This document shows positions 18,305 through 34,556 of a stretch of DNA of 64,000 nt, in pieces. Location of the stretch: assembly GCF_020037125.1 (NCBI RefSeq), contig NZ_JAIQDG010000001.1:124001-188000 (forward strand), written 5' to 3'. The first letter of the stretch is position 1; every line of letters starts with the position of its first letter. The notes below the pieces were generated by a model. The model searched no databases. It was not told the DNA's origin and saw nothing but the letters and a program-made list of their open reading frames with translations. The DNA is from Myxococcus sp. RHSTA-1-4. Its GTDB lineage: Bacteria; Myxococcota; Myxococcia; Myxococcales; Myxococcaceae. The position numbers were made by a program, and so were the translations under genes.

Positions 18305-18338
18305 GCGGAAGGGACCTCCTGGCGGGGGGACGGCGATG

Positions 18339-19664: not shown

Positions 19665-19776
19665 GGCGACTCCTTTCAGCCACTGGCCCCTAGCAAGGAA
19701 CGATCCGTACCGGACAAATGCGTGGAACCCAGGAGTTTCAAGGACTTGGGCACGGGTCGGGGTGAGGCGGGCTGGG

Positions 19777-19825
19777 GGGTGTGGGGGGCACTCCCCATGA
19801 CGGGCGAGGGGCAGACCCCACACCC
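19777..19825 (-). terminator. Inverted repeat between surface-protein operons
   Basis: A 10-bp inverted repeat (GGGTGTGGGG and CCCCACACCC) with a 29-base loop lies just after the stop of the third VWA-like lipoprotein gene and upstream of the TSP3 operon. It is a candidate terminator for the former. The strand bias of G (runs of six) is unusual for the window. Confidence 0.35.
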
Positions 19826-19834
19826 ATGGGTGGA

Positions 19835-21481
19835 TCAGGTACCGAGGATGAACTCGCTGGGGTCGAGGGAGATGACGCCGGCGGGCTCGCGGCCGGAGTC
19901 CTCGCTGTACTGGATGGGCTGGATGAGGAGCGAGCCGATGCCGGCACCGCGAGGGTCATTGTCCCGGCCGGCCTGGAGGTAGAGGTAGACCTCGTTGGTG
20001 CCCGCGGGGATGACCTCGCCCGGGATGAAGGGGTGGGGCCGCGCGCGGGTGGGGACGACGGTGATGTTCTCCGCGCGGGCGGCGTAGCAGGTGCGGCCGT
20101 CGGCGGTGGGCTCGGACTCGACGAGGTTGTAGCCGTAGCCGCGCTCCCGGTGGAAGTCGAGGTCGGCGCTGAGCGGGTCGCCATGGGCCTCCACCTCGGA
20201 GACGTTGGAGAGGCCATCACGGTCCGAGTCCAGCAGGTCCTCGGGCACGAGCGGATTCGTCATGGACAGCGTCTCCACCAGGTCCGGCACCGCGTCCCCG
20301 TCCGTGTCGCCGATGCACGGGTCGGTGCCCAGCACGCGCTCCTCGCAGGTGTTGAGCCGGTCGCCGTCCTCGTCCAGGGACACGTTGCAGCCGTTGATGG
20401 TGTCGAGCTGGAGCGGGTCCAACCCCATGCGGACCTCCAGGCCGTCCATCAGCCCGTCCTGGTCCGTGTCGAGCTGGAGCGCGTCGGTGCCGAGCGCGTC
20501 CTCGTCCACGTCGGGCAGGCCGTCGCCGTCGCTGTCGGGGAGCGACTGGCCGGCGCGGACCGCCACGTTGCGGTTGAAGGCGATGAAGCGCTTGAGCTTG
20601 AGGGTGTTCTGGCGCGCGGCGTACTTGATGTTGGTAAGGGCGCCGGGCAGACCCGCGAAGTCCACCTCGAGGGGCTCGGTGCCACCGGCGGCGGCGATGG
20701 CGGCCACGGCCTGGCGCGTATAGACGTCCGCGGTGGTGCCGCGCACGTAGATGGGCTGGACGACCACCTCGCCCGCGCCGAACTGCTCGGCCAGGGCCTT
20801 GATTTCGCCGGTGACGGCCGTCAGCTCACACTCGCCGCACGCGGCATCACAGGCGGTCTGGGCGCCCGTGTTCGCGTTGCAGCCCGTCGCCGAGGAGAGC
20901 GCCACGCACCGCGAGTCCAGTCCCGAGCGGAAGTCGTCACTCCCCCGGGCGCGGGCACACGTGGTGTCACGGTTGCGGACGATGACCACCACCATGTAGC
21001 GCGTGCGGGCCACCTCGCCGCGGCAGGACGTCTGCATGTCGCCGGACAGCAGCGTCTTGGCCAGCCGCAGGGCGGAGCGCACGCTGACGGGGCCCGACTC
21101 CTGGTAGGAGGCGTAGCGCGGCAGCGTGGCCTGGAACTCGGACGCGTCGGAGAAGCTGCCCAGGAGGCCGGTGGCGACGGTGTGGTACGCCACGAGGCCG
21201 AACTGGACGAAGGGGCCGGAGAAGCGGCTGGTGAGGGTGGAGAGGCCGTCGGTGGCATAACCGACCATCTCCGCCTCCACGCCGTCTCCCCCCTCGATGG
21301 CGAAGAGCACCTTGGTGGGGAAGGCCTCGCCGCCCGCCAGGGGGACGCACACATTGCCGGAGAAGCTGGCGCGGTCCTTCCCGCCAGGGCCTCGCCCGTC
21401 GAGGGCGTAAAGGCCCGCGTCGGAGCACGACATGAGCAGCACGGGAACGAGGAGCCAGGCACAACGCGAAAGAGCGCGCAT
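19835..21481 (-). CDS. VWA-like lipoprotein with TSP3 repeats and a degenerate metal site (third paralogue)
   Basis: A 548-residue lipoprotein (LLMSCSD lipobox) clearly related to the two VWA lipoproteins downstream: the same short N-terminal segment with a Cys-containing G-VC motif, a VWA-size domain, Asp-rich repeats (DSDGDGLPDVDEDALGTD, DTDQDGLMDGLEVRMG, DTDGDAVPDLVETL, DSDRDGLSNVSEVEAHG) and the C-terminal module (GYGYNLVESEPTADGRTCYAARAENI). Where the paralogues have DxSxS, this one reads EGGDG, so metal binding in the classical manner is lost. It is separated from the TSP3 operon by 170 bases with a hairpin and probably has its own promoter upstream of 21481. Surface display is likely; the ligand is unknown. 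Confidence 0.85.
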   Translation of the reverse strand: MRALSRCAWLLVPVLLMSCSDAGLYALDGRGPGGKDRASFSGNVCVPLAGGEAFPTKVLFAIEGGDGVEAEMVGYATDGLSTLTSRFSGPFVQFGLVAYHTVATGLLGSFSDASEFQATLPRYASYQESGPVSVRSALRLAKTLLSGDMQTSCRGEVARTRYMVVVIVRNRDTTCARARGSDDFRSGLDSRCVALSSATGCNANTGAQTACDAACGECELTAVTGEIKALAEQFGAGEVVVQPIYVRGTTADVYTRQAVAAIAAAGGTEPLEVDFAGLPGALTNIKYAARQNTLKLKRFIAFNRNVAVRAGQSLPDSDGDGLPDVDEDALGTDALQLDTDQDGLMDGLEVRMGLDPLQLDTINGCNVSLDEDGDRLNTCEERVLGTDPCIGDTDGDAVPDLVETLSMTNPLVPEDLLDSDRDGLSNVSEVEAHGDPLSADLDFHRERGYGYNLVESEPTADGRTCYAARAENITVVPTRARPHPFIPGEVIPAGTNEVYLYLQAGRDNDPRGAGIGSLLIQPIQYSEDSGREPAGVISLDPSEFILGT

Positions 21482-21658
21482 CGGCCGGATTCTACACCTC
21501 AGCCCCCCGAGGTGACGCAAGCGACAGCATGGGTACATCTCGGATTCGGCGCGGATGCGGCACAACTGGAGCCGAGATTTCAGCCCGCCGTGGAACAGTC
21601 TCGCCGGGCCGGCTGCCCTCCTGGCACCCCGGATGGATGGACGCGAGCGCGCGGTGAC

Positions 21659-23338
21659 TCACCCGTGCCCGGACCGGTACCGCGCCAGCGCTTCGCGTCC
21701 GGCGGCGCGATACAGCTCCTCCCACCGGCGCAGCTCATCGAGCGCGACGCCGTGCTCCGCGGCGAGGTCCTCCGGCACGCGCTGGCCGGTGAGCAGCGCG
21801 AGGATGGCCGCCTCCATCCCCTCCTCCGGCGCCATGGCACGCGGCGCGGGTGCACACGGGGGCGCTCCTCCGAAGCGAGGCCCCAGCAGCGCCCGCATCG
21901 CCACGCGCCCGTCCGTGGCGGGGGCGGACTCACGGGCGGAGGCCAGCGGCAGGCGGACGGCGGGGTCGCCCAGGAGGATGTAGTTGGCCAGGTCCTGGCG
22001 CAGCATCCACAGCCGGGCGCGCTCCACGCCGTCAATGGAGGACGGGCTCCCGTGCGCGCGCTCCAGCTCCTCCTGGTTGTAGAGCGACGTCAGCTCGCTG
22101 CTCGTCTCGTTGAGGACCTGTATCAGTGAGTGCAGTGCGACGCCCGCGCGGCTGCCCCGGGCCAGCTCCTTCAGCAGCTCGATGAAGCGCGAGGGCGTGC
22201 CACGGCCCCGGTCGCTGAAGCTGTGGGACCAGGCGAGGTCCACGTGTCCCATCACCGCCAGCGGCCCCTCGGGGTTGGCCAGCGCGGCCTGGGGCAGCGC
22301 GGCGATGAAGGGAGGCTCCCCGGCCTGGGGCGCCGCCTCCAGTCCCCTCCTCGCGTTCGGGTCGCTCTCCGGGAGCTTGCGCAGCCAGTGCGCGTAGCTG
22401 CTGCGCGCCGGAGTCCCCGCGCCGAAGCACGCGAAGCTGAACCAGATGCCGCCCGGCAGGAAGGGACGTGACGCAAGCGCCGCCGCCGGAAGGAAGCGCC
22501 CGTCCGGCAGCTTCAGCTCTCCCTGGTGCTCCCGCCGGGCCTCGGGCCGCTCCCAGCCCCCGGGGGGCCGCCCCCTGCCATGGCTCAACGTGAAGAGCAC
22601 ACCCGGCCCGGGCCGCGTCGCATGGTCCAGCAGGTGCTCGATGGGCACCGCCCCGCTGGCGCCCAGCTCGAGGATGTCCGCCGGAGGGAAGCCCGCCTCC
22701 TCCTGGCGCTCGCGGCAGGCCGTGACGCTGGGTGTGATGAGCGCGCGGTGTCCCAGCTCCGTCGCGGCGGAGCCGTCGCGCGCGGTGTAGAAGAGCATCC
22801 GCGCCCGCGTCTGGCTCGCGGCCGCGCGCTCCCAGCGCAGCACCTTCTCGGCATAGGCCTCGTAGCCCGCGTCGGAGGCGAAGGCCAGCCGCCCCACGAA
22901 GGCATCGGTGGACAGCGACTGCTGCAGCTCCAGCGGGACTTCGTGCAGGTCCCCCAGCAGCAGCAGGTAGCGCGGCCTGTCCTTCTCCGAGGTGCCCTCG
23001 TGCCGGAAGACCTCCTTCTTCCAGCGCATGGCATACGGCCCGTCCATGACGGACGGGACGCGGTGGACGATGACGGGCGCGCCGCCCTGCCCCTCCTGAC
23101 GCCACCGCCGCAGTGGCTCGACGAGCGCCAGCAACCGGTCGCCCCGAGGCCCTCGGGGCGCCACCAACCCCCAGCGCTGGCGGCCCAGGTCGTTCGGGTC
23201 TCCCGTCGCATCCCACAGCGCGTCGGGCTCCTCGACGGGCTCGGGCCGCGGAGCGCTCCGGAACGACTCCAGGGGAAGCCCGCGACGGGGCACGGCCCCG
23301 ACCTCAACGGCGTGGGCCAGCAGCAGCTCGACGGTCAT
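21659..23338 (-). CDS. Gingipain-like (peptidase C25-type) caspase-fold protease
   Basis: A 559-residue protein with the features of clan-CD cysteine peptidases. LLLLGDLHEVP followed by TDAFVGRLAF resembles the C25 core strands; TLSHGRG carries the presumed catalytic His253, and WFSFACFGAG the presumed catalytic Cys304. NYILLGDPAVRL near the end also recalls C25. Unlike secreted gingipains it has no signal peptide, so it should act in the cytoplasm. ATG 23338 is chosen; upstream in-frame TTG with a strong GGAGG is an alternative that would add 12 residues. It is the last gene of a block led by an ECF sigma factor, 57 bases after the duplicated-domain protein. Substrates are unknown. Confidence 0.78.
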   Translation of the reverse strand: MTVELLLAHAVEVGAVPRRGLPLESFRSAPRPEPVEEPDALWDATGDPNDLGRQRWGLVAPRGPRGDRLLALVEPLRRWRQEGQGGAPVIVHRVPSVMDGPYAMRWKKEVFRHEGTSEKDRPRYLLLLGDLHEVPLELQQSLSTDAFVGRLAFASDAGYEAYAEKVLRWERAAASQTRARMLFYTARDGSAATELGHRALITPSVTACRERQEEAGFPPADILELGASGAVPIEHLLDHATRPGPGVLFTLSHGRGRPPGGWERPEARREHQGELKLPDGRFLPAAALASRPFLPGGIWFSFACFGAGTPARSSYAHWLRKLPESDPNARRGLEAAPQAGEPPFIAALPQAALANPEGPLAVMGHVDLAWSHSFSDRGRGTPSRFIELLKELARGSRAGVALHSLIQVLNETSSELTSLYNQEELERAHGSPSSIDGVERARLWMLRQDLANYILLGDPAVRLPLASARESAPATDGRVAMRALLGPRFGGAPPCAPAPRAMAPEEGMEAAILALLTGQRVPEDLAAEHGVALDELRRWEELYRAAGREALARYRSGHG

Positions 23339-23395
23339 CGGGCTTCCCCCGCGCTCCGGGTTCAAGGTGGTTCCTCCTGCCTCCACGCCACCCCG

Positions 23396-24139
23396 CTAGA
23401 AGGCGGAGGCCGCCGCCTGGTTGTCGGAGAAGGCGCTCTCGGTGACGCGCACGAGCGGGGTGACCTGGGACAGGGTGATGGAGAAGTCGCGCCTGAGGTA
23501 CTCGAGGTAGTCCCGCAGGTACGACTCCGAGGGCTGCTCGGGGTACTCGACGGAGGCCCGGGCCAGCGTCATCCGGTCGGCGAAGCTCCCGAGGTCGGCC
23601 ATGTTGCCCCGGGCCGCGAACACGAACAGGGGCCCCGGCGAGCTGCACACGCCGAAGGCGAAGAACTCGTTGTCGTTCGGTTTCATGACGACGACCTTCC
23701 GGGTGGTCTCCGAGGGCCACCCCACGTTCTCGGTGGTGATGGACCTCGTCAGCGAATACTCCTCGGTCGCCCCCCCTCCGTAGCCCATGAGGCCGTTGAT
23801 GGGCGGAGGCTTGGGCCCGTCGGTCTCCCCACTCTCGTACGGCTCGTCGGAGGTGTAACGCTTCACCAGGGGCCACGGCAGCGGCGGCCGGGCGTACAGC
23901 TCCACGGTGGCGCCAGCCTGGGCCATCCGGGCGGTGAACTCGCCCAGGTGCTCGAGCGCCCGGCCCCGGGCCACGAAGTGCACCGTCGACGATGGGCCCA
24001 CCACGCCGAAGGCCAGGAACTCGGCGGGGTTGGGCAGCGGCATGAGAAAGGTGCGCCGCGCGGCGTCCCCGGCTCCGTTCCAGAATGGGGCATCCCCGAA
24101 GAACTCCAGGTTGTAGAAGGCTGGCTCCTGCTGGCTCAT
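23396..24139 (-). CDS. Unknown protein with an internal duplication
   Basis: A 247-residue protein that I do not recognise. Residues about 28-86 and 146-203 are two copies of one module: each has a basic pair, a hydrophobic strand, P-N-x-x-EF-x-AFGV, then F-x-ARG, L-G-x-F-x-x-RM and A-x-VE, ending in a proline-rich turn. A third, degenerate piece (EFFGDAPF) opens the protein. The C-terminal 40 residues look helical and amphipathic. There is no signal peptide or membrane segment. It lies between a caspase-like protease gene and a CHAT anti-sigma gene on the same strand, which suggests a substrate, inhibitor or adaptor role; this is inference from position only. Confidence 0.72.
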   Translation of the reverse strand: MSQQEPAFYNLEFFGDAPFWNGAGDAARRTFLMPLPNPAEFLAFGVVGPSSTVHFVARGRALEHLGEFTARMAQAGATVELYARPPLPWPLVKRYTSDEPYESGETDGPKPPPINGLMGYGGGATEEYSLTRSITTENVGWPSETTRKVVVMKPNDNEFFAFGVCSSPGPLFVFAARGNMADLGSFADRMTLARASVEYPEQPSESYLRDYLEYLRRDFSITLSQVTPLVRVTESAFSDNQAAASAF

Positions 24140-24245
24140 GACTTCGCGTCCCCCTGTGCTGGGTAGAGGAGATTTGCCCTACCCACTCCATAGGACGCAG
24201 CCACCGCGCTTTATTACTTCGCGAGATTCATTTCTTTTTCGCGCT

Positions 24246-27173
24246 TCACTCGAACAGCAGGACGCTTTCGAGCCACGCCGCCCCCTGCTTCTGCCCCAGC
24301 CACCGCACGCGCTCGTCGCGGAGCGCGATGGCCGGAGGCGCCCCGGAGCGGATGCGCTCACGGACCGCGTTGAAGAAGGACTCTGCCTCCAGGTCGGGAA
24401 TCTCCACCGTCGCCGCGAGCACTCCACGCGCGCCCGCCTCGATGAAGGAGACAGGAAGACTGAAGGGCGAGTCGAACGAGTAGGCCGTGTGGGCCGCGTG
24501 GCAGGCCGCGAGCACCACGAAGGGAGCGCCGCGCAGCGAGGCGCCGCGCACCTGTGGAACGCGCAGCTCCGCGCCCTCCGGCCCGGGAGCCAGCAGCAGG
24601 AATGAAGTGTTGGCGTGGCCGCTGATGATGCCATGGGTCACCAGGTCGATTTCGGTCGCGTCCTTCATGGCGGCGAGAACGCGGTGGGGCGTCGCCTCGG
24701 TCCCGGACAAGGTGACGCGCTGCTCATCGGGGCCGAAGCCGGGGGTCCATGCATTGAGCCGCTTGAGGGGACTGTCCGGCGACAACTCCACGGCCACGTC
24801 GGAGACGACGAGGTGGACCGCGGGCCCCGTGCGCTGCGCGGGAGGCGGAGTGGTGCGTGTCAGGTAGCTCCAGGCCAGCTCCGGAGGGAGCAGCCCCGCC
24901 CGGCCATGCAGGGGAGGCCGGGCCAGGACCTCCACCCGCGAGCACCCGCGCAGGACGGCCAGCAACTTCTCCGGCACCACGCCGTCCAGTCGCTCGGGCA
25001 GGGGATGACGCCGGGACTCATCAAAATGGCCGAGCAGCTCTCCGGAAGGACTCAACGCCAGGAGGAGGGTCCGCTCGGAGTCCGCGCTGATGGCCAGCAG
25101 GCACTGGCCAGGCGGCTTCAGCCCGCGCTCACGCGAGAACAACTCCAGCGCTTCCTTGAAGTCGCCGCGCCGGCCCGCGTCATGGAGGAGCGAGGTGTAG
25201 CTGTAAGCACGAGCACGCCGTGCCAACGAGTCTTCCTCCAGCCCCGGGACCTCCGCCTCCTGGATGGCACGCCAGAGCAGGTCGCGCCCGCGCCCGGCGT
25301 CCTGCTCGATGTAGAACCGCCCCAGGATGTGCGTGGCGACCGCGCGCCCGCCCGCGCTGAGCGAGGGACGGGCCGCATCCAGCGCGCGTTTCAGGTGTGC
25401 CTCGTCCCCTGGCGCGCGCTTCAACCGGGAGATGTCCGCCAGGACAAGGGCCCCAGCGGACGTCAGCGGCAGGCCCGTGGCCAGCGCGGCGTCCATCTCC
25501 CTCCGGGCTTCGTCCACACGCAGTTCCTGGAACGCCATGCTCGCGAGGTGCTGGTGGACGCGGTGCTCATCGACGGGATTCCCCCGGCCGCGCTCGAGGT
25601 ACTCGCCCAGGTAGGCGCGCGTCAGGGACGCGTCGTTCACGATGCGGGAGACCTGCGAGAGCATCCACAGCAGGTCACCCTCCAGGTTCCACTCGTTGGC
25701 GGCGCGCGCGTCGCTCCAGCCCTTCTTCGCGTGGGCGAGCGCGGCCTCCGCCATGTAGCGCTGGTTGTAGAGATGGGACAGGTCCCGCTCCAGGAAGAGG
25801 CAGCGGTATTCCATTCCGCGCGCCGGGCAGAGCTTGCGTGCGTCGAGCAGCGTCCGGATGGCTCGCTCCGTGTCTCCCGCGGCGAGCTCGGCCTTCGCCC
25901 GCTCCTGCGCCGCGTGGAGCTGGAACCAGAGGTCCCCGGTGGCCGCGGCCTTCGCCGTGTAGAGCTCCAGGTGGCGGGTCGAGGCGTCCCAGGTGGCGAG
26001 CGAGCCCAGGAGGATGTCGTCCTCGCGGGACTGGAGCAGCGCCTTGATGATGCGCTCCTGCTCCTCGCGCGGGGGATGCTCCCGGACGTGGGCCGCGTAG
26101 TGCCTCGCGAGCGGGGCGCGGCGGGAGAAGTCCGCCTCGGCGACACGGCGGACATAACCCTCCAGCACGCCGTTGCCCGCGCGAGCGTCCAGTTCCCGCG
26201 CCAGGGGCAGCAGTTCCAGCACGCGCTCGCGGTTCGGCGCGGCGCGGATGGCGTTGTAGAAGAAGAGGCGCGCAATCGGGAGCTGGCTGAAGCCCTCGGG
26301 GAGGATGGCCGGCGGCGCCTCGAGCAGGGCCAGGCCCGACTGGAACGCCGCCATCCACCGGTCCCTCCGCTCGAACGTGGTGCGCCGGAGGGCCTCGGCC
26401 TTCTGACGGGCTTCCTCGGACCAGCCGGGCTCGCGCAGGGCGGTGACCTCGGAGAAGGTGCGGGCCGCCATCAGCGACAGGCCCAGCTCGCGCAGCGCCA
26501 GCGCCCGGTTCCACAGGGCCTGTGCGTGGCGCGGGTGCTCCCGCAGCACGGCGTCCAGCAGCCTCAGCGCCTCGTCCGGCCTGCCCTTGAGCAGCAGCGC
26601 CACCGCGCGGTCGTTGTCCAGCTCCGGCGAGCGCCGCAGCTTCTCCAGCTTGCGGAGCGCCTGGTCCGCCAGGCCCGGGTCGTCGCGAACGAGAAAGGCC
26701 GCCGCCAGGCCGTGGGCGTCCTCGCGCTCCAGCCAGGCGAGCGCATCGAACGGAAGGTCCTCGAGAGGGCCGCCACCGCCCATCATCTTCGCGGCCAGGG
26801 GACGGTGGATGTCCGCGCCCGGGTGCCCGAGGCGTGCCTCCAGCAGGCGCTGGGGGCGCTGCGCCAGCCACACGTCGTGACTCGGCGCGGAGGGCCGCAG
26901 CAGTCTCACCCCGACCATGACCAGGAGGGCCGCGGCGAGGGCGGCCACCCCCAGCATGAAGGGGCGCCTCCGGAAGAGGGGAACGGGCGCGCGCGGGGGC
27001 TCGGCTTCCGCGAACTCGGCGTGGCGCCGGGACAGCAGCCTGAGCTGCATCAGGTCCGCGACCTCGCGCTGGCAGCGCATGCAGTCCGGCAGGTGCTGCC
27101 GGAAGGACTCCGCGTCCTCGGGAGCGAGCTCCCCGTCCACGAACAGCTCGACGTTCTCACAGGGGCTGGCCAT
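24246..27173 (-). CDS. Membrane anti-sigma factor fused to TPR and CHAT protease domains
   Basis: A 975-residue fusion. Residues 5-34 form a zinc anti-sigma domain: Cys5, then His27, Cys31 and Cys34 in HxxxCxxC. A single membrane helix (about 72-92) is preceded by RRR, so the N-terminus should be cytoplasmic and the rest outside. About 700 residues of tetratricopeptide-like helical repeats follow (for example ALWNRALALRELG). The C-terminal domain is CHAT: DLVTHGIISG with His847 and VVLAACHAAH with Cys891, the expected catalytic dyad of a caspase-like protease. The start overlaps the stop of the ECF sigma gene by one base (TGATG), so the pair is translationally coupled and this is the cognate anti-sigma factor. 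Only one membrane helix is visible, which places the CHAT domain outside the cytoplasm, an unusual location. Whether it is proteolytically active is unknown. Confidence 0.88.
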   Translation of the reverse strand: MASPCENVELFVDGELAPEDAESFRQHLPDCMRCQREVADLMQLRLLSRRHAEFAEAEPPRAPVPLFRRRPFMLGVAALAAALLVMVGVRLLRPSAPSHDVWLAQRPQRLLEARLGHPGADIHRPLAAKMMGGGGPLEDLPFDALAWLEREDAHGLAAAFLVRDDPGLADQALRKLEKLRRSPELDNDRAVALLLKGRPDEALRLLDAVLREHPRHAQALWNRALALRELGLSLMAARTFSEVTALREPGWSEEARQKAEALRRTTFERRDRWMAAFQSGLALLEAPPAILPEGFSQLPIARLFFYNAIRAAPNRERVLELLPLARELDARAGNGVLEGYVRRVAEADFSRRAPLARHYAAHVREHPPREEQERIIKALLQSREDDILLGSLATWDASTRHLELYTAKAAATGDLWFQLHAAQERAKAELAAGDTERAIRTLLDARKLCPARGMEYRCLFLERDLSHLYNQRYMAEAALAHAKKGWSDARAANEWNLEGDLLWMLSQVSRIVNDASLTRAYLGEYLERGRGNPVDEHRVHQHLASMAFQELRVDEARREMDAALATGLPLTSAGALVLADISRLKRAPGDEAHLKRALDAARPSLSAGGRAVATHILGRFYIEQDAGRGRDLLWRAIQEAEVPGLEEDSLARRARAYSYTSLLHDAGRRGDFKEALELFSRERGLKPPGQCLLAISADSERTLLLALSPSGELLGHFDESRRHPLPERLDGVVPEKLLAVLRGCSRVEVLARPPLHGRAGLLPPELAWSYLTRTTPPPAQRTGPAVHLVVSDVAVELSPDSPLKRLNAWTPGFGPDEQRVTLSGTEATPHRVLAAMKDATEIDLVTHGIISGHANTSFLLLAPGPEGAELRVPQVRGASLRGAPFVVLAACHAAHTAYSFDSPFSLPVSFIEAGARGVLAATVEIPDLEAESFFNAVRERIRSGAPPAIALRDERVRWLGQKQGAAWLESVLLFE

Positions 27174-27715
27174 CAGTGCTCTCCGGAATCATCATCAGTG
27201 GGGGCCAGGAACTCGCGCAGCCGGTGGCGCGCGTCGTGGATGCGCTTGCCGACGGTGCCCAGCTTCACGCCGAGGATGCGGGCAATCTCCTTGTACTTCT
27301 TCCCCGCCGTGAGCAGCTCATAGGTCTCCCGCTCCTTCTTGCTCAGCGTCCGCATGGCCGCGGAGAAGCGCTCGTCGGTGATGGACTCGAGGGCCGAGGG
27401 CGTGTGGTGCTCGTGCGCCTCCACGACCTCGTTCTGGAGGTGCGGGTCCTTCGCGTTCTGCTCCTGCACGCGCCGCCGGCGGCACTGGTCATAGAAGAGA
27501 TGGGTTGCGGTGCTGACCAGCCACGTCTGGCAGACGCGCTCGTTGGGGCGTGTCTCCATCGAGCGGAAGGTCTGGAGGAACCGGAACAGGGCTTCCTGCA
27601 CCAGGTCCTCCGCGTCGGTGGCGTTGCGGCAGACCTGGGTCATCTGGACGAGCAGCCACCGCCGCTCGCGCGCGACGAAGGCACTGGTCCAGTGCTCATC
27701 GCTTCCGTTGTCCAT
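27173..27715 (-). CDS. ECF-type RNA polymerase sigma factor
   Basis: A 180-residue sigma factor. Region 2 is seen as ATDAEDLVQEALFRFLQTF with RVCQTWLVSTATHLFYDQCRRRR after it; region 4 as LLTAGKKYKEIARILGVKLGTVGKRIHDARHRLREFL, a helix-turn-helix that recognises the -35 element. The ATG at 27715 gives a normal family length; an upstream in-frame start would add 96 residues of unlikely sequence. It is coupled to the anti-sigma/CHAT gene downstream. Its target promoters probably include the divergent promoter region and its own operon, as is usual for ECF factors, but I cannot point to a sure -35/-10 pair. Confidence 0.93.
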   Translation of the reverse strand: MDNGSDEHWTSAFVARERRWLLVQMTQVCRNATDAEDLVQEALFRFLQTFRSMETRPNERVCQTWLVSTATHLFYDQCRRRRVQEQNAKDPHLQNEVVEAHEHHTPSALESITDERFSAAMRTLSKKERETYELLTAGKKYKEIARILGVKLGTVGKRIHDARHRLREFLAPTDDDSGEH

Positions 27716-28133
27716 TGGCACGGAGGGCCCCCCGCGTTCCGCGTGCGATTGCCGGGAACGAACGGGCAACCTTATGACACGGGCACTACCCCGCGGGGAG
27801 GGGTCCGCACCGGCGGACTGCCCTCGCGGGTGAGGGGATTCCGAGGGTCGGTCCCCACCCAGCTGGAGAGGCACCTCTGGCGGTGGCTCTTCGCGAGCCT
27901 CGCCATCACATGGCAGCAGCGGTTCCTGGCCATCCATCCATCGCCTCGTGTCAGGGAGCCACGGAGAGCAGCGTGGGTGCTCCTCGATACGAGAGGACGG
28001 CATGCGAGGAATTAGTTACCCGCGGCAAGGTTCCCGGGCGCGTGCGCAAGAAATCCGCCCTTCAGCGTCGTGTTGTAAGGAGCGGGTAGGGTCGGCGCAC
28101 GGGTCCGCTCTCGCGGAGTGGAGGGGAGGCCTC
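27716..28133. other. Divergent intergenic region (418 bases), probable promoters
   Basis: The region separates the leftward ECF sigma operon from the rightward CHAT-ATPase gene, so it must hold both promoters. A GGGAAC near 27754 on the plus strand recalls the -35 of many ECF factors, but no convincing -10 partner was found. No gene with good coding character was seen in it. Confidence 0.5.
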
Positions 28134-31100
28134 ATGGGAACGGTGCGCCTGATGACGGTGAGCCCGTGGTCCGCATGCGGTGAAGGTGAGGGTGAGAAGC
28201 CGGAAGTCAGTGTGGAGGCCAATCCCTACGAGGTCGTGCTGGAGCTGGCGCGGGCGCAAAACGCGGGGGACCCCTACGGCTTCCATGACGTGAAGCCCCA
28301 GGAGTACCGGCTGCGGGTGGGCGAGGGAGGCCTCCGGTGCGCGACCTTCCCCTGGAGCGAGCGCGTGCTGGCGGACCTGGAGGCGCTGGCGGGACGGGTG
28401 CCGGACGCAGTGGCGGCGCGGCGGCTGGGCGAGGACATCCGCGGCTTCCTGGACGCGCTGGACTGGGGCGGGCACGAGGAGACGCTGGAGCGGCACGCGC
28501 GAAGCGGCCGGGCGGTGAGGCTGGTGCTGCGCTCTTCCGCGGCGGAGCTGTATTCGCTGCCGTGGGAGCTGGTGACGCTGAAGGACAGTGGGCAGCACCT
28601 GGCGGACATCCCCGGCTTCTCGCTGCGCTACGAGTGGCCGAGAGAGCATCTGGAGGTCGCATCCCTGGGCGAGGTGCGGGAGGGACGGGTGCTGATGGCC
28701 TGGTCCGAGGCGGGCGGCGCGGTGCCGGACGAGCGGCACCAGGAGGCACTGCTGAAGGCCAGCCTGGAGGGAGGCTTCGGCTTCGACCCGCGGCGCGACG
28801 TGCTGCCGAGAGTGTCTCTGGAGGGCCTGGAGCGGACGCTGAGCGCGGCCCGCGAGGCGCGGGAGCCGGTGTCCGTGCTGCACCTGCTCTGCCACGGGAC
28901 CCTCGTGGAGACGCCGACCTCCAGCCACTTCGGGCTGGCGTGGAACGCGCCGGGGGACTCTGGCGGCAAGCAGTGGGTGGACGCGGGGGCACTGGCCGCG
29001 GCGCTGGCACCGTACCGGGGCACACTCCGGCTGGTGGTGCTGTGCGCGTGTCATGGCGGGGACGGCGGCAGGCTGGCCAGCCACCTGGGCAGCATGGCGC
29101 AGGAGCTTCACCGGGCGGGCATCGAGATGGTGGTGGCCTCGCGGCTGCCCATGACGGCCGAGGGCTCGGTGCTGCTGGCGCGGACGCTGTACGAAAAGCT
29201 GCTGGTGGACTCCCGCTCGCTGGAGGAGGCCCTGGCGGCGGCGCGGCGCAGGCTGAGGGTGGAGGCGAAGGGCTTCGACTGGGCTTCGCTGCAGCTCTAC
29301 GCGCGCGGCACGGGCGAGGCGGACCTGAGGCCGGTGGTGCTGCGGCCCTACCGGGGGCTGCTGCCCTTCGGGCCGAAGAACCGGCGCTTCTTCTTCGGCC
29401 GGAGCCGCCTGGAGGCGGAGCTGCTGGCGCGGGTGGACGAGGCGGGACGGGAGAAGCGGCCCCGCTTCCAGGTGGTGGCGGGCGCGTCCGGCGCGGGGAA
29501 GTCCTCGGTGGTGATGGCGGGGCTGGTGCCCCGGCTCCCGGCGGAGACGTGGGACGTGGTGACGGTGCGGCCCACGGAGCTGGGGCGTCCCCAGCCGAAG
29601 GCGGCGGGCGTGCGCTCCGAGCCCCTGCGGGAGCTGCGGCAACGGCTGCACCGTGTCTGGGATTCGGAGCCGCTGCCGGACGGCGAAGGGGCCCAGCAGC
29701 AGGACGTGGTGGCGGAGGCGCGCCGGCTGAGGCAGGCGCGTCCGGACCACAAGCTGCTGCTGGTGGTGGACCAGCTCGAGGAGGTGTTCACGCACCTGGA
29801 GGGCGCCGAGCGCCAGGCGCTGATGCGGGCGCTCTGGGCCCTGACCCGGACGCCTGAGCTGGAGTGCGTGGTGGTGGCCACGCTGCGGGTGGACGCCTTC
29901 GAGCGCTGCGGAGAGGTGGCGCTGGACGACGGCACGCGGCTGGACGCCGTCGTGTACTCCGAGGCCCACCGGGTGTTCGTGGCGCAGCTCGGCCCGGAGG
30001 AGCTGGTCGAGGCCATCGAGAAGCCGGCGCGCCGGGTGGGGCTGGAGCTGGAAGCGGGGCTGGTGGACCGGCTGTGCCGCGACGTGGGGCAGGAACCGGG
30101 AGCGCTGCCGCTGCTGGAGCATGCGCTGGACCTGTTGTGGCAGGGGCGCGATGGCAACCGGCTGACGCACCGGATGTACGCGCAGATGGAGGGTGTCGCG
30201 GGCGCGCTGACGCGGACGGCGGAGCGGCTGTACGACACGCTGGCGGAGGACGAGCGCCAGCAGGCCCGGCGCCTGCGCGAGGAGCTGATTGCCCTGGGGG
30301 ATGAGTCCACGCCCGACAGCCGGCGGCGGGTGTGGCTGGAGGACATCCGGCCCGAGGAGCCTGACGCCCGGGCCGCCTTCGACCGCATGCTGGAGAAGAT
30401 GGTGACGGCGCGGCTGCTGATTCGAGGCAGCGAGACGGAGGGAGCCGGCCGCGTCTGGTTGGAAGTAGCGCACGAGGCGCTCATCCGCCGGTGGCAGCGC
30501 CTGCGGGGCTGGCTGCGGGAGAACCGCAAGCGGCTGCTCCGCTGGCGCGAGCTGCAAGCCATGGCGGAGACGTGGCACGCGCACCGTCGAGACCCGGACG
30601 GAGGCGTGTCCTACCTGGCCACCGGAGCGCGGCTGCGCTTCGCGCGCCTCATCCGCGACGAGCACCAGCGGCTGCTGACGGCGCCGGTGCGGGACTTCCT
30701 GGTGGCCTGCGAGGCCCGGGAGTACCGGAGGGGGTTGCGCCGGTGGCTGACGCGGGCGGGGACGCTGGTGGGCATGGCCCTCTGCGTGGCGGTGGCCCTC
30801 AGCGAGCATCACCAGCGCGCCGAGCTGGAGCGCCGCCTGTCCGGAGTCGTCGACGTGGTCCGGCGGCTCCACTTCAAGACCGAGAAGCTGGCCGCCATCG
30901 CCGGCACGGCCGAGGTGCGCGAGGACATCGGCCAGGAGGTGGAGCGGCTCCTGACGAGCCTGGGCGCGACCCAGGAGCCCGGCATCCTGATTGGCCGAAT
31001 CATCACCCACATGACGAGTGGCGACGCGGCCCTCATGAACAAGGACCTGGCAAGAGCGCGCGCGGAATACAGTCAGGCGCTCGAGCTCGCGACGCGCCTG

Positions 31101-31337
31101 CGCCAGTCCGACCCGGACCGCCAGTTCTTCACGGGCATCCTCATCACCATCCACTCCATGCTGGAGAAGATTGCCCATGAGCAGGGCCAGCTCGCGGAGG
31201 CCCACGAGCACCACCGGGTCCACGACGAGCTGGCCGAGGAGCTGCTGCGGGCGGACCCGGCGAACGCCGCCCTCCTGCGCGACCTGGCCCCGCATCCACG
31301 GGCGGATGAAGCCCCCGCCCCCGGAGCGAACGAGTAA
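28134..31337 (+). CDS. CHAT protease / STAND-type ATPase / transmembrane / TPR signalling protein
   Basis: A 1067-residue protein started at ATG 28134 behind GGGGAGG. The N-terminal third is a CHAT domain with HLLCHG (His254) and CACHGG (Cys306) as the probable dyad. A novel-STAND-type ATPase follows: Walker A GASGAGKSS (Lys456), Walker B LLLVVDQLEEV (Asp546), then a long helical part with LEVAHEALIRRW, typical of nSTAND1 proteins. A single membrane helix lies at about 877-895, and the last 170 residues form a TPR-like segment predicted to be outside. Proteins of this layout are switches: ligand sensing by the C-terminus, ATP-driven oligomerisation, then protease activation. It diverges from the ECF sigma operon and is followed by a secreted protein 55 bases downstream. 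The substrate and trigger are unknown. Confidence 0.88.
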   Translation: MGTVRLMTVSPWSACGEGEGEKPEVSVEANPYEVVLELARAQNAGDPYGFHDVKPQEYRLRVGEGGLRCATFPWSERVLADLEALAGRVPDAVAARRLGEDIRGFLDALDWGGHEETLERHARSGRAVRLVLRSSAAELYSLPWELVTLKDSGQHLADIPGFSLRYEWPREHLEVASLGEVREGRVLMAWSEAGGAVPDERHQEALLKASLEGGFGFDPRRDVLPRVSLEGLERTLSAAREAREPVSVLHLLCHGTLVETPTSSHFGLAWNAPGDSGGKQWVDAGALAAALAPYRGTLRLVVLCACHGGDGGRLASHLGSMAQELHRAGIEMVVASRLPMTAEGSVLLARTLYEKLLVDSRSLEEALAAARRRLRVEAKGFDWASLQLYARGTGEADLRPVVLRPYRGLLPFGPKNRRFFFGRSRLEAELLARVDEAGREKRPRFQVVAGASGAGKSSVVMAGLVPRLPAETWDVVTVRPTELGRPQPKAAGVRSEPLRELRQRLHRVWDSEPLPDGEGAQQQDVVAEARRLRQARPDHKLLLVVDQLEEVFTHLEGAERQALMRALWALTRTPELECVVVATLRVDAFERCGEVALDDGTRLDAVVYSEAHRVFVAQLGPEELVEAIEKPARRVGLELEAGLVDRLCRDVGQEPGALPLLEHALDLLWQGRDGNRLTHRMYAQMEGVAGALTRTAERLYDTLAEDERQQARRLREELIALGDESTPDSRRRVWLEDIRPEEPDARAAFDRMLEKMVTARLLIRGSETEGAGRVWLEVAHEALIRRWQRLRGWLRENRKRLLRWRELQAMAETWHAHRRDPDGGVSYLATGARLRFARLIRDEHQRLLTAPVRDFLVACEAREYRRGLRRWLTRAGTLVGMALCVAVALSEHHQRAELERRLSGVVDVVRRLHFKTEKLAAIAGTAEVREDIGQEVERLLTSLGATQEPGILIGRIITHMTSGDAALMNKDLARARAEYSQALELATRLRQSDPDRQFFTGILITIHSMLEKIAHEQGQLAEAHEHHRVHDELAEELLRADPANAALLRDLAPHPRADEAPAPGANE

Positions 31338-31392
31338 CAATCCCTCTCAGGCTCGTCCCTCAAGGTGCAACCACTCACAATGGAGGCACACA

Positions 31393-32100
31393 ATGAAGGG
31401 CTGTCAATCCGTGCTGTATTCGCTGTTCTCGCTCATGCTCCTATCCGCCACCCCGGCCATGGCTGACAATGATTCACCGAGAGGCGTCGACCCGCGGACG
31501 GCCTCCCAGCTGCTGCACCAGCTCGAGTCGTACGCCGAGGCCCTCATCCAGCGCGACTCCCAGGCGGCCACCAGGCTCATGTCCGGAAGCAAGCAGGAGC
31601 GCATCCAGCGCAAGCATCCCACCCGCGCGATGGCCCGCTTCATCGACCAGGACCGCGCCAACCTCATCGACGCGCTCGGGGGCGAGGTGGACTCCGTCCG
31701 AGGCCGCTTCTCGGTGCTGAAGGCCGAGTCCCGCCCCCAGGCCATCCTCCTCTACGTGGCCTTCGATGGGCGCCCCCTGGGCAAGCCGCTCTCCTTCGTC
31801 CTGGAGGGAGGCCAGTACAAGTTCGATGGCGGCAACATCCAGTCCCTGAGCGGCGACACCTATGCCATCAAGAGCTACTCGGACCTCTCCCAGTCGATCG
31901 AGTGCATCTATGACAACAAGATCGACGTGAAGCCCTGGGAGGAGCGGGGCCTCTGGTGCGCCGACGAATACGACATCTGCGATGGGAGCGGCACCCTGTT
32001 CAAGTACCACGAGCGCAATCACTACTGCGACTGGAACACCTGGGGCATCGACTTCTACATCAACCCCGACGGCAGCGGTCAGTGCAACGACCGCTGCTGA
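31393..32100 (+). CDS. Secreted cysteine-rich protein of unknown function
   Basis: A 235-residue protein from ATG 31393 with GGAGG upstream. A signal peptide is cleaved after PAMA near residue 24. The first half is a helical segment with many charged residues (AEALIQRDSQAATRLMSGS), then a beta-rich part with YVAFDGRPLGKPLSFVLEGGQYKFDGGN. The last 60 residues hold six cysteines (IEC, WC, DIC, HYC, GQC, RC-end), which suggests three disulfides outside the cytoplasm. No known family is recognised. It is the second gene behind the CHAT-ATPase protein and could be its periplasmic partner; that is inferred from the operon only. A perfect hairpin follows the gene. Confidence 0.72.
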   Translation: MKGCQSVLYSLFSLMLLSATPAMADNDSPRGVDPRTASQLLHQLESYAEALIQRDSQAATRLMSGSKQERIQRKHPTRAMARFIDQDRANLIDALGGEVDSVRGRFSVLKAESRPQAILLYVAFDGRPLGKPLSFVLEGGQYKFDGGNIQSLSGDTYAIKSYSDLSQSIECIYDNKIDVKPWEERGLWCADEYDICDGSGTLFKYHERNHYCDWNTWGIDFYINPDGSGQCNDRC

Positions 32101-32150
32101 CCCGGCGAGCTTCCGCGGTACGTTCCGGGAGGCATGAGCTCGCGGGGTGA

Positions 32151-32185
32151 TGGGCCCGGAACCCGATACGAGGGTTCCGGGCCCA
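32151..32185. terminator. Perfect 14-bp hairpin between convergent genes
   Basis: A flawless 14-base inverted repeat (left arm TGGGCCCGGAACCC, loop GATACGA of seven bases) lies between the stops of the secreted protein and the di-haem propeller gene. It is the strongest terminator-like structure in the window and should work in both directions. Confidence 0.72.
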
Positions 32186-32219
32186 GGCCATTCGAGCAGT
32201 CCCATCCAGGTCCGGCCGT

Positions 32220-34556
32220 CTACAGCGTCAGCAGGAACGCGAGCAGGTCATCGCGTTCCTCCGCCGTGAGCGCCTGCGCGTTGCCGTGCTTCGGCCCCGA
32301 GGTCTCCAGCACCGCGCGCAGCGGGAAGCGCGTGTCCACCACCAGCCGCCCGTCCTTCACCGCGTAGCCCGCCGTGGCGCTCGTCAAGAGGGGCCACACG
32401 TCCCAGGTGCCCACCAGCGACGGCGGCGCCGCGCCCACCACCAGGTCCTGCAGCTCCAGCCGCAGCGGCAGCGCCACCGGCGTGCCCACGTCCAGGTACT
32501 GCCCGCGCGTGGCCGCGTCCTGGTCCAGCGTGTAGAGCGGCGCGGGGTGGCACTCCACGCAGCGGCCCTTCCCCTCGAACAGCTCGCGCCCGCGCGCCGG
32601 CCGCCCCACCCTTCCGTCCGGCAGCTCCACCGTCTCCAGCGGCGCGCCGGCCGCGCCCCGGAAGGGGTTGGGCGGCGTGGGCATCAGCGCCGTGAAGAGG
32701 GAGAGCGCCTCCACCTCCTCGGGGGACGGGTCCGGGTTGTGGAAGCGGTTGCGCCCGCCCACGAAGCTCACCGTGTCCGCGAGGCTGTGGTGGCTGGCGG
32801 GTGTGAAGTACGGCGGCGTGTCCCGGCTGCCCAGCGCGGTGGTGGAGCGGTAGACGCGGTTGTTGGGCCGCATCTTCTCGTAGAAGACGCCCCCCGTGTG
32901 GCCCTCGATGTGGCAGCCGTCGCACGTAAGCCCCGTGCGCCCCAGGTCCACGTAGTAGAGGACCTGCCCCAGGCGGCGCTTGGCCTGCGCGCGGCCCTGC
33001 ACCACCGGGAGCTGGCGCACCACGCGGGCCTTGCCCGCGCGCGCCTCGCGCACGTCCACCAGCGCCACCGTACGCGTGAAGCGGTTGAGCACGTAGAGCG
33101 TGGCCCCGTCCGGCGACAGCGCCAGCGCGCGCGGCCCGGAGTGCAGCTCCTCTCCCGCACGGTCCTTCGCCGTGAAGTCCGCGGCAGGGCGGATGCGCGG
33201 CGTGCCCTCGGGGGGCGTCAGCGCCACCTCCTGCAGCACCGCGCCGCGCGCCGCCTTCTCGGCGCCCACCAGCGCGCGCGCGTCCAGCACCCGCACCCGG
33301 CCGAGGCCCACGTCCGCCGCGTAGAGCAGCCCCGCGGCGTCGTCCAGCGCCAGCCCCTCCGTCACGCCCGCGCCGAAGCCGCGGTGCCGCACGTAGGCGC
33401 CGCCCGCCGGGTCCACCACCGCCACGCCGCTGTTGGCGCTCACCTCCATGCGCCTCGGATTGGGGCCCACGTTCGGCCCCAGGCTCGCCATGAAGAGGCG
33501 CCCCAGCCGCTCGCTCGCCACCAGCGCCCGGGGCGCCTTGCCCCCCATCACCTGCTCGCGGAAGGGCTCCGTGTGGCCCCCCAGAATCGACACACCCGGC
33601 CCCGGCACCACCGTGGCCACCGGCGCGCCGTCCGCCTGGCGCAGCAGCTCCAACTGCCCCGTCTGGAGACTGCCCACCGCCAGCAGGTCCTTCCACCGCG
33701 CCAGCGCGCGGGGGTTGGGGTCCACCGCCGCGGACCACTTCACCGCCCCGTCGGCGAGCGACAGCGCGTGGACCCTGTCCCGCACGTGCTCCGCCACGAA
33801 GGCCACGCCGCTGACGCCATCCACTTCCAGCCCGTGCGCGCCCACCGGCGCGGGCAGCACCCTGGGCGCGCTCCCCGGCGCGTCGAGCGCGTACAGGCGC
33901 AGCTCCGGCTGGTACCGGTGCACCACGCCCAGCCACGGCCGGCCCTCCGCGTCCTTCCAGGTGGCCAAAGCGGACGGCCCGTCCCCCACCGCCAGCCGCT
34001 CCACGCGGCCCGACTCCACGTCCAGCGCGAACACCGTGTCCGTGGGCGGCGAGGCCATGAACAGCGTGCGCCCATCCGGGGACAGCGCCAGCCCCGTCAG
34101 GTCCGGGAAGGCCGTGTCGTTCACCACCGTCAGGCGCGCGGAGCCCTCGCCCTCCGGCGACAGCCGCGCCTCCACCACCGCCTGCGGAGAGTCCTCCGGC
34201 AGCGCCAGGCCGGCAGGCAGGCGGGCGTACGCGTGGCCCGCGTCCACCACCACCAGCGGCAGCTCGCGCGACAGCGGCGGCCCCAGCACCAGCTTCAGGC
34301 CCGGCACCAGCCGCTCGCCGTACACCGAGAGCGGCTGCGACGTCTCGTTGCTGGTGAGCTTCGGGCCCACGGACACGAGCTTCGGCCGCGAGGTGGACTC
34401 CACGGGAGTCGTGGGTCCGGCCGGCTCGGGCGTGGGTGCGCCCCGGCGCAGCACCACCACTCCCGCGGCGGCCAGCATCACTCCCAGCGCCGCGACCACT
34501 CCCCACTTGTGTGCCGTGCGTGTCACGTCGGGTCCGAGACCTCCTCGCCGCAGCAT
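32220..34556 (-). CDS. Membrane-anchored beta-propeller protein with two c-type haem motifs
   Basis: A 778-residue protein. An N-terminal helix (WGVVAALGVMLAAAGVVVL) anchors it; an extracytoplasmic face is expected because c-type haem is attached outside. The central 500 residues have repeated LALSPDGRTLFMAS, LALDDAAGLLYAADV and LALSPDGATLYVLNR motifs, the YVTN-like blades of a propeller. Two haem-binding CxxCH motifs follow: CDGCH near residue 543 and CVECH near 665. The arrangement resembles di-haem peroxidase/MauG-like or cytochrome-propeller fusions, though I do not see a specific substrate. It may move electrons or sense redox. Its promoter must lie in the divergent region to the right of 34556. 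Confidence 0.85.
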   Translation of the reverse strand: MLRRGGLGPDVTRTAHKWGVVAALGVMLAAAGVVVLRRGAPTPEPAGPTTPVESTSRPKLVSVGPKLTSNETSQPLSVYGERLVPGLKLVLGPPLSRELPLVVVDAGHAYARLPAGLALPEDSPQAVVEARLSPEGEGSARLTVVNDTAFPDLTGLALSPDGRTLFMASPPTDTVFALDVESGRVERLAVGDGPSALATWKDAEGRPWLGVVHRYQPELRLYALDAPGSAPRVLPAPVGAHGLEVDGVSGVAFVAEHVRDRVHALSLADGAVKWSAAVDPNPRALARWKDLLAVGSLQTGQLELLRQADGAPVATVVPGPGVSILGGHTEPFREQVMGGKAPRALVASERLGRLFMASLGPNVGPNPRRMEVSANSGVAVVDPAGGAYVRHRGFGAGVTEGLALDDAAGLLYAADVGLGRVRVLDARALVGAEKAARGAVLQEVALTPPEGTPRIRPAADFTAKDRAGEELHSGPRALALSPDGATLYVLNRFTRTVALVDVREARAGKARVVRQLPVVQGRAQAKRRLGQVLYYVDLGRTGLTCDGCHIEGHTGGVFYEKMRPNNRVYRSTTALGSRDTPPYFTPASHHSLADTVSFVGGRNRFHNPDPSPEEVEALSLFTALMPTPPNPFRGAAGAPLETVELPDGRVGRPARGRELFEGKGRCVECHPAPLYTLDQDAATRGQYLDVGTPVALPLRLELQDLVVGAAPPSLVGTWDVWPLLTSATAGYAVKDGRLVVDTRFPLRAVLETSGPKHGNAQALTAEERDDLLAFLLTL

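Follow-up and report, generated by a model that had tools for sequence, protein, structure and literature searches.

A predicted STAND-sensor version of the DdvS/DdvA-controlled protease module in Myxococcus sp. RHSTA-1-4

Results

We analyzed a 64,000-nucleotide stretch of the Myxococcus sp. RHSTA-1-4 genome (contig NZ_JAIQDG010000001.1, positions 124,001 to 188,000; referred to as the window here, with positions counted from its first letter), in which a 10.4-kb island (21659 to 32100) encodes a C25-type caspase-like protease, a duplicated-domain protein (DUP), an anti-σ factor, and an extracytoplasmic function (ECF) σ factor on the minus strand, followed by a CHAT-nSTAND1 protein and an exported-looking protein on the plus strand. 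Comparison with related loci suggests that this island is a STAND-sensor version of the DdvS/DdvA-controlled protease defense module of Myxococcaceae, where an envelope-gated σ factor would arm a STAND-triggered CHAT-to-C25 cascade against phage, a reading to which we assign a probability of roughly 0.6. Given that close relatives carry antivirus genes of cyclic-oligonucleotide-based antiphage signaling systems (CBASS) in the same place, the island is probably an antiphage system with an exchangeable sensor. What the comparison supports is the domain make-up and its catalytic dyads, the kinship of the anti-σ factor to DdvA, the linkage of CHAT and C25 genes, the exchange between CHAT-nSTAND1 and CHAT-SAVED with CBASS genes, and a promoter motif that appears to be local to the module.

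An earlier, sequence-only reading of this DNA had listed an ECF σ factor, an anti-σ factor with a CHAT domain, a C25 protease, a duplicated-domain protein, a divergent CHAT-STAND protein, and a secreted protein. Gene calls and Pfam agree on each of them, with no Pfam or NCBIfam family for DUP and the exported protein. The three clan CD His/Cys pairs that it pointed out are conserved in aligned relatives (of the anti-σ factor, of C25, and of CHAT-nSTAND1/CHAT-SAVED), and σ regions 2 and 4 (Sigma70_r2 and Sigma70_r4_2) as well as the zinc anti-σ motif all score above the Pfam cut-offs. The genes themselves are thus real, but the open reading frames (ORFs) of the σ factor and of the CHAT-STAND protein had been extended too far at their 5′ ends, overlapping as listed. 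The former is open to 28003 and the latter from 27948. Since predicted promoters fall inside these longer frames, later starts are favored, and the most likely true starts are ATG 27715 for the σ factor (27173 to 27715, minus strand; ∼180 amino acids) and ATG 28134 for CHAT-nSTAND1 (28134 to 31337, plus strand).

The anti-σ factor and its kinship to DdvA

The anti-σ factor (24246 to 27173, minus strand) is composed of a zf-HC2 zinc finger (approximately residues 1 to 50; 25.2 bits against a Pfam cut-off of 22.2), one predicted membrane helix (residues 71 to 89), a TPR region, and a CHAT domain (59.2 bits against a cut-off of 24) with the dyad H847/C891. H847 is kept in 150 of 150 aligned family members and C891 in 149, the remaining row being gapped. 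When the profile of this family was compared with solved structures, it retrieved one full-length relative, 8rot/8rw5 (E value of 4.5e-280 over the whole length), whose record title is transmembrane anti-sigma factor DdvA (Myxococcus xanthus). The predicted model aligns with DdvA over 867 residues with a Z score of 48.7 and 41% identity, and the next structural relatives are the Craspase TPR-CHAT/Csx29 entries (Z score of ∼20).

The DdvS/DdvA locus itself was recovered as locus L179, where 204 residues of the solved DdvA sequence are 100% identical. Its gene order is CD-NTase, CHAT-SAVED, σ factor, anti-σ factor, C25, CD-NTase, ThiF (E1), and JAB, and ∼8 kb past these genes lie the type III-B cas genes Cmr2/Cas10, Cmr3, RAMP, and Cas6. 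According to an excerpt of a review (PMC12288465), the antiphage island under DdvS control comprises two CBASS and one III-B CRISPR-Cas system, and an excerpt of another article states that the ddvS promoter requires DdvS and calls the signal that inactivates DdvA unknown (PMC4374960). More generally, our statements on DdvS/DdvA and on the SAVED-CHAT cascade discussed below draw in part on excerpts of PMC12288465, PMC4374960, PMC11237760, PMC11229360, and PMC11417357. Given that the anti-σ factor matches DdvA and that the DdvS/DdvA island was recovered, the σ/anti-σ pair of the window is, judged from its sequence, of an already studied, DdvS/DdvA-like kind. The two loci share the anti-σ architecture, the σ gene directly upstream of it, the C25 gene downstream, an adjacent CHAT protein, and the same kind of predicted promoter before the σ gene. 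They differ in that the window has CHAT-nSTAND1 where the island has CHAT-SAVED and CD-NTase, and in that the window adds DUP and the exported protein.

Positive charge is greater before the membrane helix than after it, so that the TPR-CHAT part of the anti-σ factor is predicted to lie outside the cytoplasm and, as a consequence, to be separated from the other two proteases. This agrees with some paralogues that lack the zinc finger and begin at an N-terminal hydrophobic anchor. Four cysteines are near-invariant in the family (149 to 150 of 150 rows), which would suit disulfides and is in line with an outside position. The sequence-only reading had proposed a signaling protease cascade in which envelope sensing frees the σ factor and fires the proteases, possibly for defense, predation, or programmed lysis. 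Its defense role gains from the CBASS-bearing sister modules and from the DdvS/DdvA island, while one linear cascade is unsupported because of the predicted position of the anti-σ CHAT domain across the membrane.

The anti-σ family is large and was found in 31 of the 61 genomes searched. Genomes of the genus each carry at least 4 to 11 copies, counts that are lower bounds because no more than 13 candidates per genome were scored. From the best 80 of 123 loci we obtained a set of 79 distinct ones; these best 80 come from Myxococcus, Corallococcus, Pyxidicoccus, Archangium, Hyalangium, Citreicoccus, unclassified Myxococcaceae metagenome-assembled genomes (MAGs), and one Kofleriaceae MAG. Among 174 distinct members, a number that includes short ones without CHAT, a σ gene lies at most 400 bp upstream in 115 of the 118 that carry the zinc motif, compared to 0 of the 56 members without the motif. 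Most members (142 of 174) lie outside C25 loci. The family also has a split version, in which free TPR-CHAT proteins without zinc finger occur near a σ gene (e.g., L034, L041, L062, L065, and L126), and in such loci the anti-σ factor belonging to that σ gene has a zinc finger and a partial TPR region with no CHAT match.

Linkage of C25 proteases to CHAT genes with different sensors

The C25 protease (21659 to 23386, minus strand; 575 amino acids as called, the conserved start being probably ATG 23338) matches Peptidase_C25 with 31.7 bits (Pfam cut-off of 23), and its dyad of H269 and C320 is kept in 22 of 22 aligned relatives. Hydropathy, the sole criterion here, gives no signal peptide or membrane segment, as no hydrophobic segment exceeds the threshold in the whole protein. 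A helix-turn-helix (HTH)-like tail extends over residues ∼527 to 575. Among the 22 aligned proteins, this tail is confined to CHAT-nSTAND1 modules (the window, L036, L045, L052, and L092), L044 being without it.

The CHAT-nSTAND1 protein combines nSTAND1 (329.9 bits, with the Walker A motif GASGAGKSS) and CHAT (64.7 bits) domains with a single predicted membrane helix, and its C-terminal region is TPR-like. The catalytic His and Cys are kept in 12 of 12 aligned CHAT-nSTAND1/CHAT-SAVED proteins. Its CHAT part matches the PADLOC model SAVED_CHAT (2.5e-32, model positions 4 to 285 of 498), and no SAVED domain was found in the protein with Pfam or with our SAVED models. The CHAT domain is 47 to 71% identical to STAND-type CHAT domains, versus 33 to 38% for those of the SAVED type. 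The membrane helix, located behind the ATPase, is predicted in the window and in five of the seven relatives examined but not in L045 or L213 (the frame of the L213 piece being unchecked); in L092, the helix stands at the very end. This weakly suggests that CHAT-nSTAND1 may also watch the envelope.

We collected 81 C25 loci from the high-scoring rows of a phylum-wide search, from earlier C25 rows, and from those accompanying anti-σ loci. This set leaves out a low-scoring Corallococcus subfamily (∼17 rows, E values from 1e-51 to 1e-19) except for L271; ten fetched loci that duplicated another place were removed beforehand, and loci with a pair of C25 genes entered it only once. Neighboring genes were called at 1e-8 with hidden Markov models (HMMs) built from 2 to 54 sequences, by which a weak DUP in genome G010 was missed. 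Of the 195 phylum genomes searched, 41 have a member of the C25 family, and all 41 belong to one family. CHAT genes of SAVED-CHAT type occur within 9.5 kb in 67 of the 81 loci, 43 times with nSTAND1, 18 times with SAVED, and 6 times with neither. The anti-σ factor is present in 32 of the 81: 18 with CHAT-SAVED and CD-NTase, 8 with CHAT-nSTAND1 (including the window), 2 with CHAT alone, and 4 with none in view, of which two have a CHAT-SAVED gene elsewhere in the genome (G011 and G017). Most of the CBASS-type loci (16 of 18) also carry HORMA/TRIP13 or E1E2, while L255 and L264 have only CD-NTase besides CHAT-SAVED.

DUP (23396 to 24139, minus strand; 247 amino acids) occurs in 21 of the 81 C25 loci, in all 21 of them together with the anti-σ factor, as in an earlier set, where it stood beside the anti-σ gene in 13 of 13 cases. 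Its predicted model shows two beta-beta-beta-alpha-beta repeats at low confidence (pLDDT of 61.5), and fold searches gave a best E value of 1.0e-3 with low TM-scores in Foldseek and a best Z score of 7.3 in VIA-align, for 60 residues of a ribosomal protein. As a control, 109 anti-σ loci without C25 gave no match to the CHAT, nSTAND, SAVED, CD-NTase, or DUP models. A chance cluster was rejected on these grounds, as the genes co-occur in relatives and the control loci show none of them. The co-occurrence of homologues in other genomes, on which the sequence-only reading had staked its proposal, is thus borne out, with DUP always accompanying the anti-σ factor and nearly all zinc-finger anti-σ genes standing near a σ gene.

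The σ arm appears to be a variable part of this linkage. CHAT/nSTAND1/C25 modules free of σ factor are common (35 of 81 C25 loci, e.g., L173 to L178, L231, L237, L241 to L244, and L257 to L260), making up 35 of the 49 C25 loci that lack the anti-σ factor; in seven that were scanned, the nSTAND1 protein carries WD40 repeats.

Predicted promoters and regulon

Module genes share the upstream element GTAA[CTG][AG]A[AT]-N12-CGT[CT]. This strict pattern was set after viewing the sister loci, and its spacing was left free from 9 to 16 for the counts. Within modules, it precedes the σ gene in 16 of 31 cases, the CHAT gene in 12 of 29, and DUP in 13 of 21, and it never precedes the anti-σ gene (0 of 32) or C25 (0 of 32). 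Outside modules, it was found before 4 of 109 σ genes and 1 of 42 CHAT genes, and random 470-bp pieces of module loci contain it in 2.2% of cases. With spacings of 6 to 19 tried, a spacing of 12 accounts for 34 of the 43 counts. In the window, only the DUP and exported-protein genes are preceded by a strict match.

Sites were also scored with a position weight matrix (PWM) from 34 sites in 15 module loci, which excludes the window but includes its close relatives, so that the sites are not all independent. The top four matches in the whole window all fall in the module: before the σ/anti-σ genes (27996 to 28019, minus strand; 30.4 bits), before DUP-C25 (24194 to 24217, minus strand; GTAATAAA-N12-CGTC, 26.6 bits), before CHAT-nSTAND1 (28046 to 28069, plus strand; 20.9 bits), and before the exported protein (31334 to 31357, plus strand; GTAACAAT-N12-CGTC, 10.4 bits), the next match having 9.8 bits. 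The predicted promoters of the σ and CHAT-nSTAND1 genes are divergent from each other. Given that 60 Markov copies of the window reached a maximum of 15.9 bits, with 0.23 matches per copy above 10.3, three of the sites are firm by the measure of this control and the fourth is marginal. The latter lies 36 bp before the start codon of the exported-looking protein (31393 to 32100, plus strand; 235 amino acids from ATG 31393, with a signal-peptide-like N terminus by eye), with a plausible ribosome site. Among other loci with anti-σ factor and C25, 24 of 31 have a PWM match above 16 bits (9 of 16 outside the training set), versus 0 of 49 C25 loci without anti-σ factor; the seven without such a match are L037, L086, L245, L247, L263, L264, and L265. 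The DdvS/DdvA locus L179, outside the training set, has sites before ddvS (21.6 bits) and before its second CD-NTase (24.1 bits). At the level of sequence, therefore, predicted σ-type promoters precede the neighboring genes, in keeping with the σ dependence that had been anticipated for them.

The exact pattern has 6 matches in the 11.24-Mb genome of the window, whose relatives are named Myxococcus, Pyxidicoccus, and Corallococcus, among others; 2 of the 6 are in the module (reversed control, 2). Seven related genomes have 54 matches, compared to 24 for the reversed control, and 32 of the 54 lie no more than 22 kb from the C25 gene of a module. Since the matches in related genomes concentrate at modules, the predicted regulon is largely local. 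Near-identical copies away from the module exist in the same genus at G033:C1:6622067 and G106:C3:613527 and may mark a further regulon member. In L044, a protein of 224 residues (17439 to 18113) whose C-terminal tail is strongly hydrophobic stands between two CHAT genes behind a predicted site of 19.9 bits and is possibly a membrane-acting effector. Predicted σ sites also precede an exported-looking protein in L213 (∼7112 to 8157) and a divergent PPIC/SurA-like pair in L092 (16341 to 18637), suggesting that the regulon may include envelope proteins.

A second element, GTGTCATAA, lies ∼50 to 60 bp upstream of the σ start in seven of eight STAND-type loci (the window, L036, L044, L045, L052, L212, and L213, not L092), and CBASS modules are at least two mismatches away from it. 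Its longer 17-mer form, GTGTCATAA-NN-YTGCCC, matches once in the genome of the window (27764 to 27780, minus strand, ∼50 bp upstream of the σ start). This element is possibly a second promoter or a leader element.

Descent and chromosomal place

A maximum-likelihood tree inferred from 85 C25 domains unites the eight STAND modules with anti-σ factor in one clade (100/97). This clade is nested in one of 21 rows (100/98), which comprises 20 anti-σ modules, among them 9 of the CBASS type, plus a single row on a long branch that lacks the anti-σ factor. The σ-free STAND-WD40 loci fall mainly in other C25 clades. In a quick tree of anti-σ factors, 19 other C25-linked members, CBASS modules included, cluster with the window (100%), the DdvA group stands apart, and the eight STAND modules come together at only 48% support. 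Taken together with the CHAT identities, the two trees suggest an exchange of the entire sensor gene, with the σ/anti-σ/DUP/C25 part staying in place.

On both sides, the module of the window and those of L036, L045, and L052 are bordered by the same genes. The proteins of these flanks share 71 to 91% identity with their counterparts in the window, counted where at least 47% of the protein matched, versus 46 to 73% for module proteins. By this comparison, the four loci share a chromosomal place at which the module is fast-changing or has been replaced. No flanking gene matched in the fetched stretches of L044, L212, L213, and L092, where the module probably occupies a different place.

Comparison with known systems

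A SAVED-CHAT proteolytic cascade of a type III-B CRISPR/CBASS system was reportedly described by Steens et al. in 2024, and we take 8tl0 to be a structure of this system. The profile of myxococcal CHAT-SAVED proteins meets 8tl0 weakly (9.6e-6). The window resembles the cascade in that its CHAT domain matches the SAVED_CHAT model and is paired with a second caspase-like protease; it differs in that its effector has no SAVED domain and would use a STAND ATPase as sensor. The window as a CBASS system was rejected, as there was no CD-NTase or SAVED match; the search of the whole window for CD-NTases relied on three HMMs from sister modules at 1e-8, which distant CD-NTases could escape. Among those window proteins that were scanned with Pfam, no cas family was found.

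Craspase (Cas7-11, the TPR-CHAT protein Csx29, Csx30, and CASP-σ) is similar in coupling a TPR-CHAT fold to an ECF σ factor and, according to an excerpt of PMC10028731, in having σ motifs local to its locus. In contrast, the TPR-CHAT part in the window is fused to the anti-σ factor and predicted across the membrane, and neither Cas7-11 nor Csx30 appeared among the Pfam-scanned proteins, a scan that covered part of the window and was not aimed at them. CalpL/CalpT/CalpS likewise unites a protease, an anti-σ factor, and an ECF σ factor in one defense locus, but CalpL is a SAVED-Lon protein and the anti-σ factor a separate substrate (PMC11417357, in excerpt). The EACC2/TRADD-N caspase conflict systems place a caspase-type gene beside an ECF σ gene, with predicted immunity and a proposed transcriptional step; they differ from the window in that the text excerpted from PMC8195603 contains no CHAT anti-σ factor, C25, SAVED, or CBASS link, and its main text did not yield the word CHAT as such. 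Finally, the window protein belongs with peptidase family C25 by its above-cut-off Pfam match and its His/Cys dyad, but unlike the secreted gingipain type it appears to have no signal peptide, and most loci of its family have a CHAT gene nearby.

Already known, then, are the DdvS/DdvA switch, its CBASS-CRISPR island, the SAVED-CHAT protease cascade, and other caspase loci with ECF σ genes. In the literature searched, which had the scope of one library, no published STAND version or C25 link turned up. Relative to it, novelty lies in the module with a STAND sensor, in the broad linkage of CHAT and C25 genes that combine with exchangeable sensors, in DUP, and in the local regulon predicted here.

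Proposed mechanism and alternatives

From these comparisons we infer a mechanism with an envelope trigger, STAND assembly, CHAT-to-C25 cleavage, a role for DUP, and phage protection. At rest, the membrane-bound anti-σ factor, with its zinc finger inside and its TPR-CHAT part outside, would hold the ECF σ factor. An envelope event, e.g., phage attack, would alter or cut the anti-σ factor and free the σ factor, which would then transcribe its own operon, DUP-C25, CHAT-nSTAND1, and probably the exported protein, so that the cell would be armed with a cytoplasmic two-protease pair. CHAT-nSTAND1 would act as the trigger, sensing a ligand of its own and assembling via its STAND ATPase, upon which its CHAT domain would cut and activate C25, and activated C25 would cut cell proteins and thereby stop phage growth. 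DUP, which adjoins C25, is probably cotranscribed with it and probably a regulator of C25. That the σ factor would arm the system rather than report on it is suggested by the sites before the protease and sensor genes, by the existence of CHAT-C25 pairs without σ factor, and by the reported control of the island by DdvS. The CHAT-to-C25 step is proposed because a SAVED-CHAT cascade is mentioned in an excerpt of PMC11229360.

Several observations weigh against this mechanism. Its CHAT-to-C25 step is an analogy to a reported SAVED-CHAT-to-protease cascade, and the sequence of C25 finds no relative in PDB at E values up to 1 that would tie it to the protease of that system. No PADLOC model matches C25, DUP, or the anti-σ factor. 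As the anti-σ CHAT domain is predicted to lie outside, it is unlikely to touch the cytoplasmic proteases directly. In 14 of the 81 C25 loci, some of them on short contigs, there is no CHAT gene in view, and 49 of the 81 lack the σ pair, meaning that the σ arm is optional. Half of the CBASS modules (9 of 18), including the DdvA island L179, are not part of the C25 clade to which the window belongs. The strict promoter pattern misses the σ and CHAT-nSTAND1 sites by one base each, so that both rest on the PWM, and the marginal fourth site belongs to an exported protein that has one weak relative (in G012) in 60 other genomes searched and none in the sister loci fetched.

The alternative that fares best holds that the anti-σ CHAT domain cuts itself or a periplasmic partner, in which case the sensor would serve as site-1 protease for itself and the two cytoplasmic proteases would form a separate arm. 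It is compatible with the mechanism preferred here, and the catalytic His and Cys, kept in nearly all aligned members of the anti-σ family, speak in its favor, as do the single predicted membrane helix and the anchored, zinc-finger-less paralogues, which would place CHAT outside. In E. coli, however, a separate protease, DegS, cuts RseA (PMC10028731, in excerpt), and we regard self-cutting as conceivable but doubtful. Somewhat less likely still is that activated CHAT-nSTAND1 (or C25) cuts the cytoplasmic stem of the anti-σ factor, with the σ factor as the output and not the arming step. Precedents exist, in that the Craspase TPR-CHAT entries follow DdvA as structural relatives, and in that excerpts report that Csx29 cuts Csx30, an inhibitor of an ECF σ factor whose locus has three σ motifs (PMC10028731), and that CalpL cuts the anti-σ factor CalpT (PMC11417357). 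Against this flow of the signal, the CHAT gene itself sits behind a predicted σ promoter, and 39 of the 49 C25 loci without anti-σ factor have a CHAT gene in view, so that the anti-σ factor cannot be the sole substrate there. Least probable is an envelope-stress or developmental regulator whose proteases clear damaged proteins as housekeeping: the exported protein follows a weak predicted σ site and the anti-σ family is large and mostly unlinked to C25, so that its basic job may be envelope sensing, but the CHAT-SAVED and CD-NTase genes in 18 of 32 C25-linked anti-σ loci, the patchy distribution of C25, and the greater divergence of module proteins than of their flanks at the shared place all fit defense better.

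The preferred reading, that of a σ-armed, STAND-triggered antiphage module, can tentatively be taken further, to a two-key defense that we deem possible at best: the outside caspase-like anti-σ factor would first have to be tripped for the module to be armed, and the inside STAND-CHAT protein would then have to recognize a phage part in order to fire C25, with CHAT-C25 as a general executioner cassette taking CBASS, membrane STAND, or STAND-WD40 sensors and the DdvA-type switch as an add-on. If the preferred reading is true, caspase-type proteases in myxobacteria would be a common execution cassette with varied sensors (cyclic-nucleotide or STAND), armed by an envelope-gated σ factor. It would also provide a promoter motif open to testing, as well as a STAND trigger made of a single protein, for which no cyclic nucleotides would have to be made. 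The questions of what inactivates DdvA and what role its CHAT domain plays gain a comparative set of 32 linked loci.

Other features of the window

No Rfam match at gathering scores and no tRNA were found within the window, and nothing resembles a regular repeat array in 20000 to 34000. Flanking the module are three genes (16322 to 21565) that encode thrombospondin type 3 repeats, in one case together with VWA, and that are also present in L036, L045, and L052. Farther away, the window encodes a protein ending in a Tox-REase-5 domain, a nuclease of the polymorphic-toxin type (49702 to 51315), and a DUF2381 protein whose gene is followed by one for a protein kinase (53748 to 56551).

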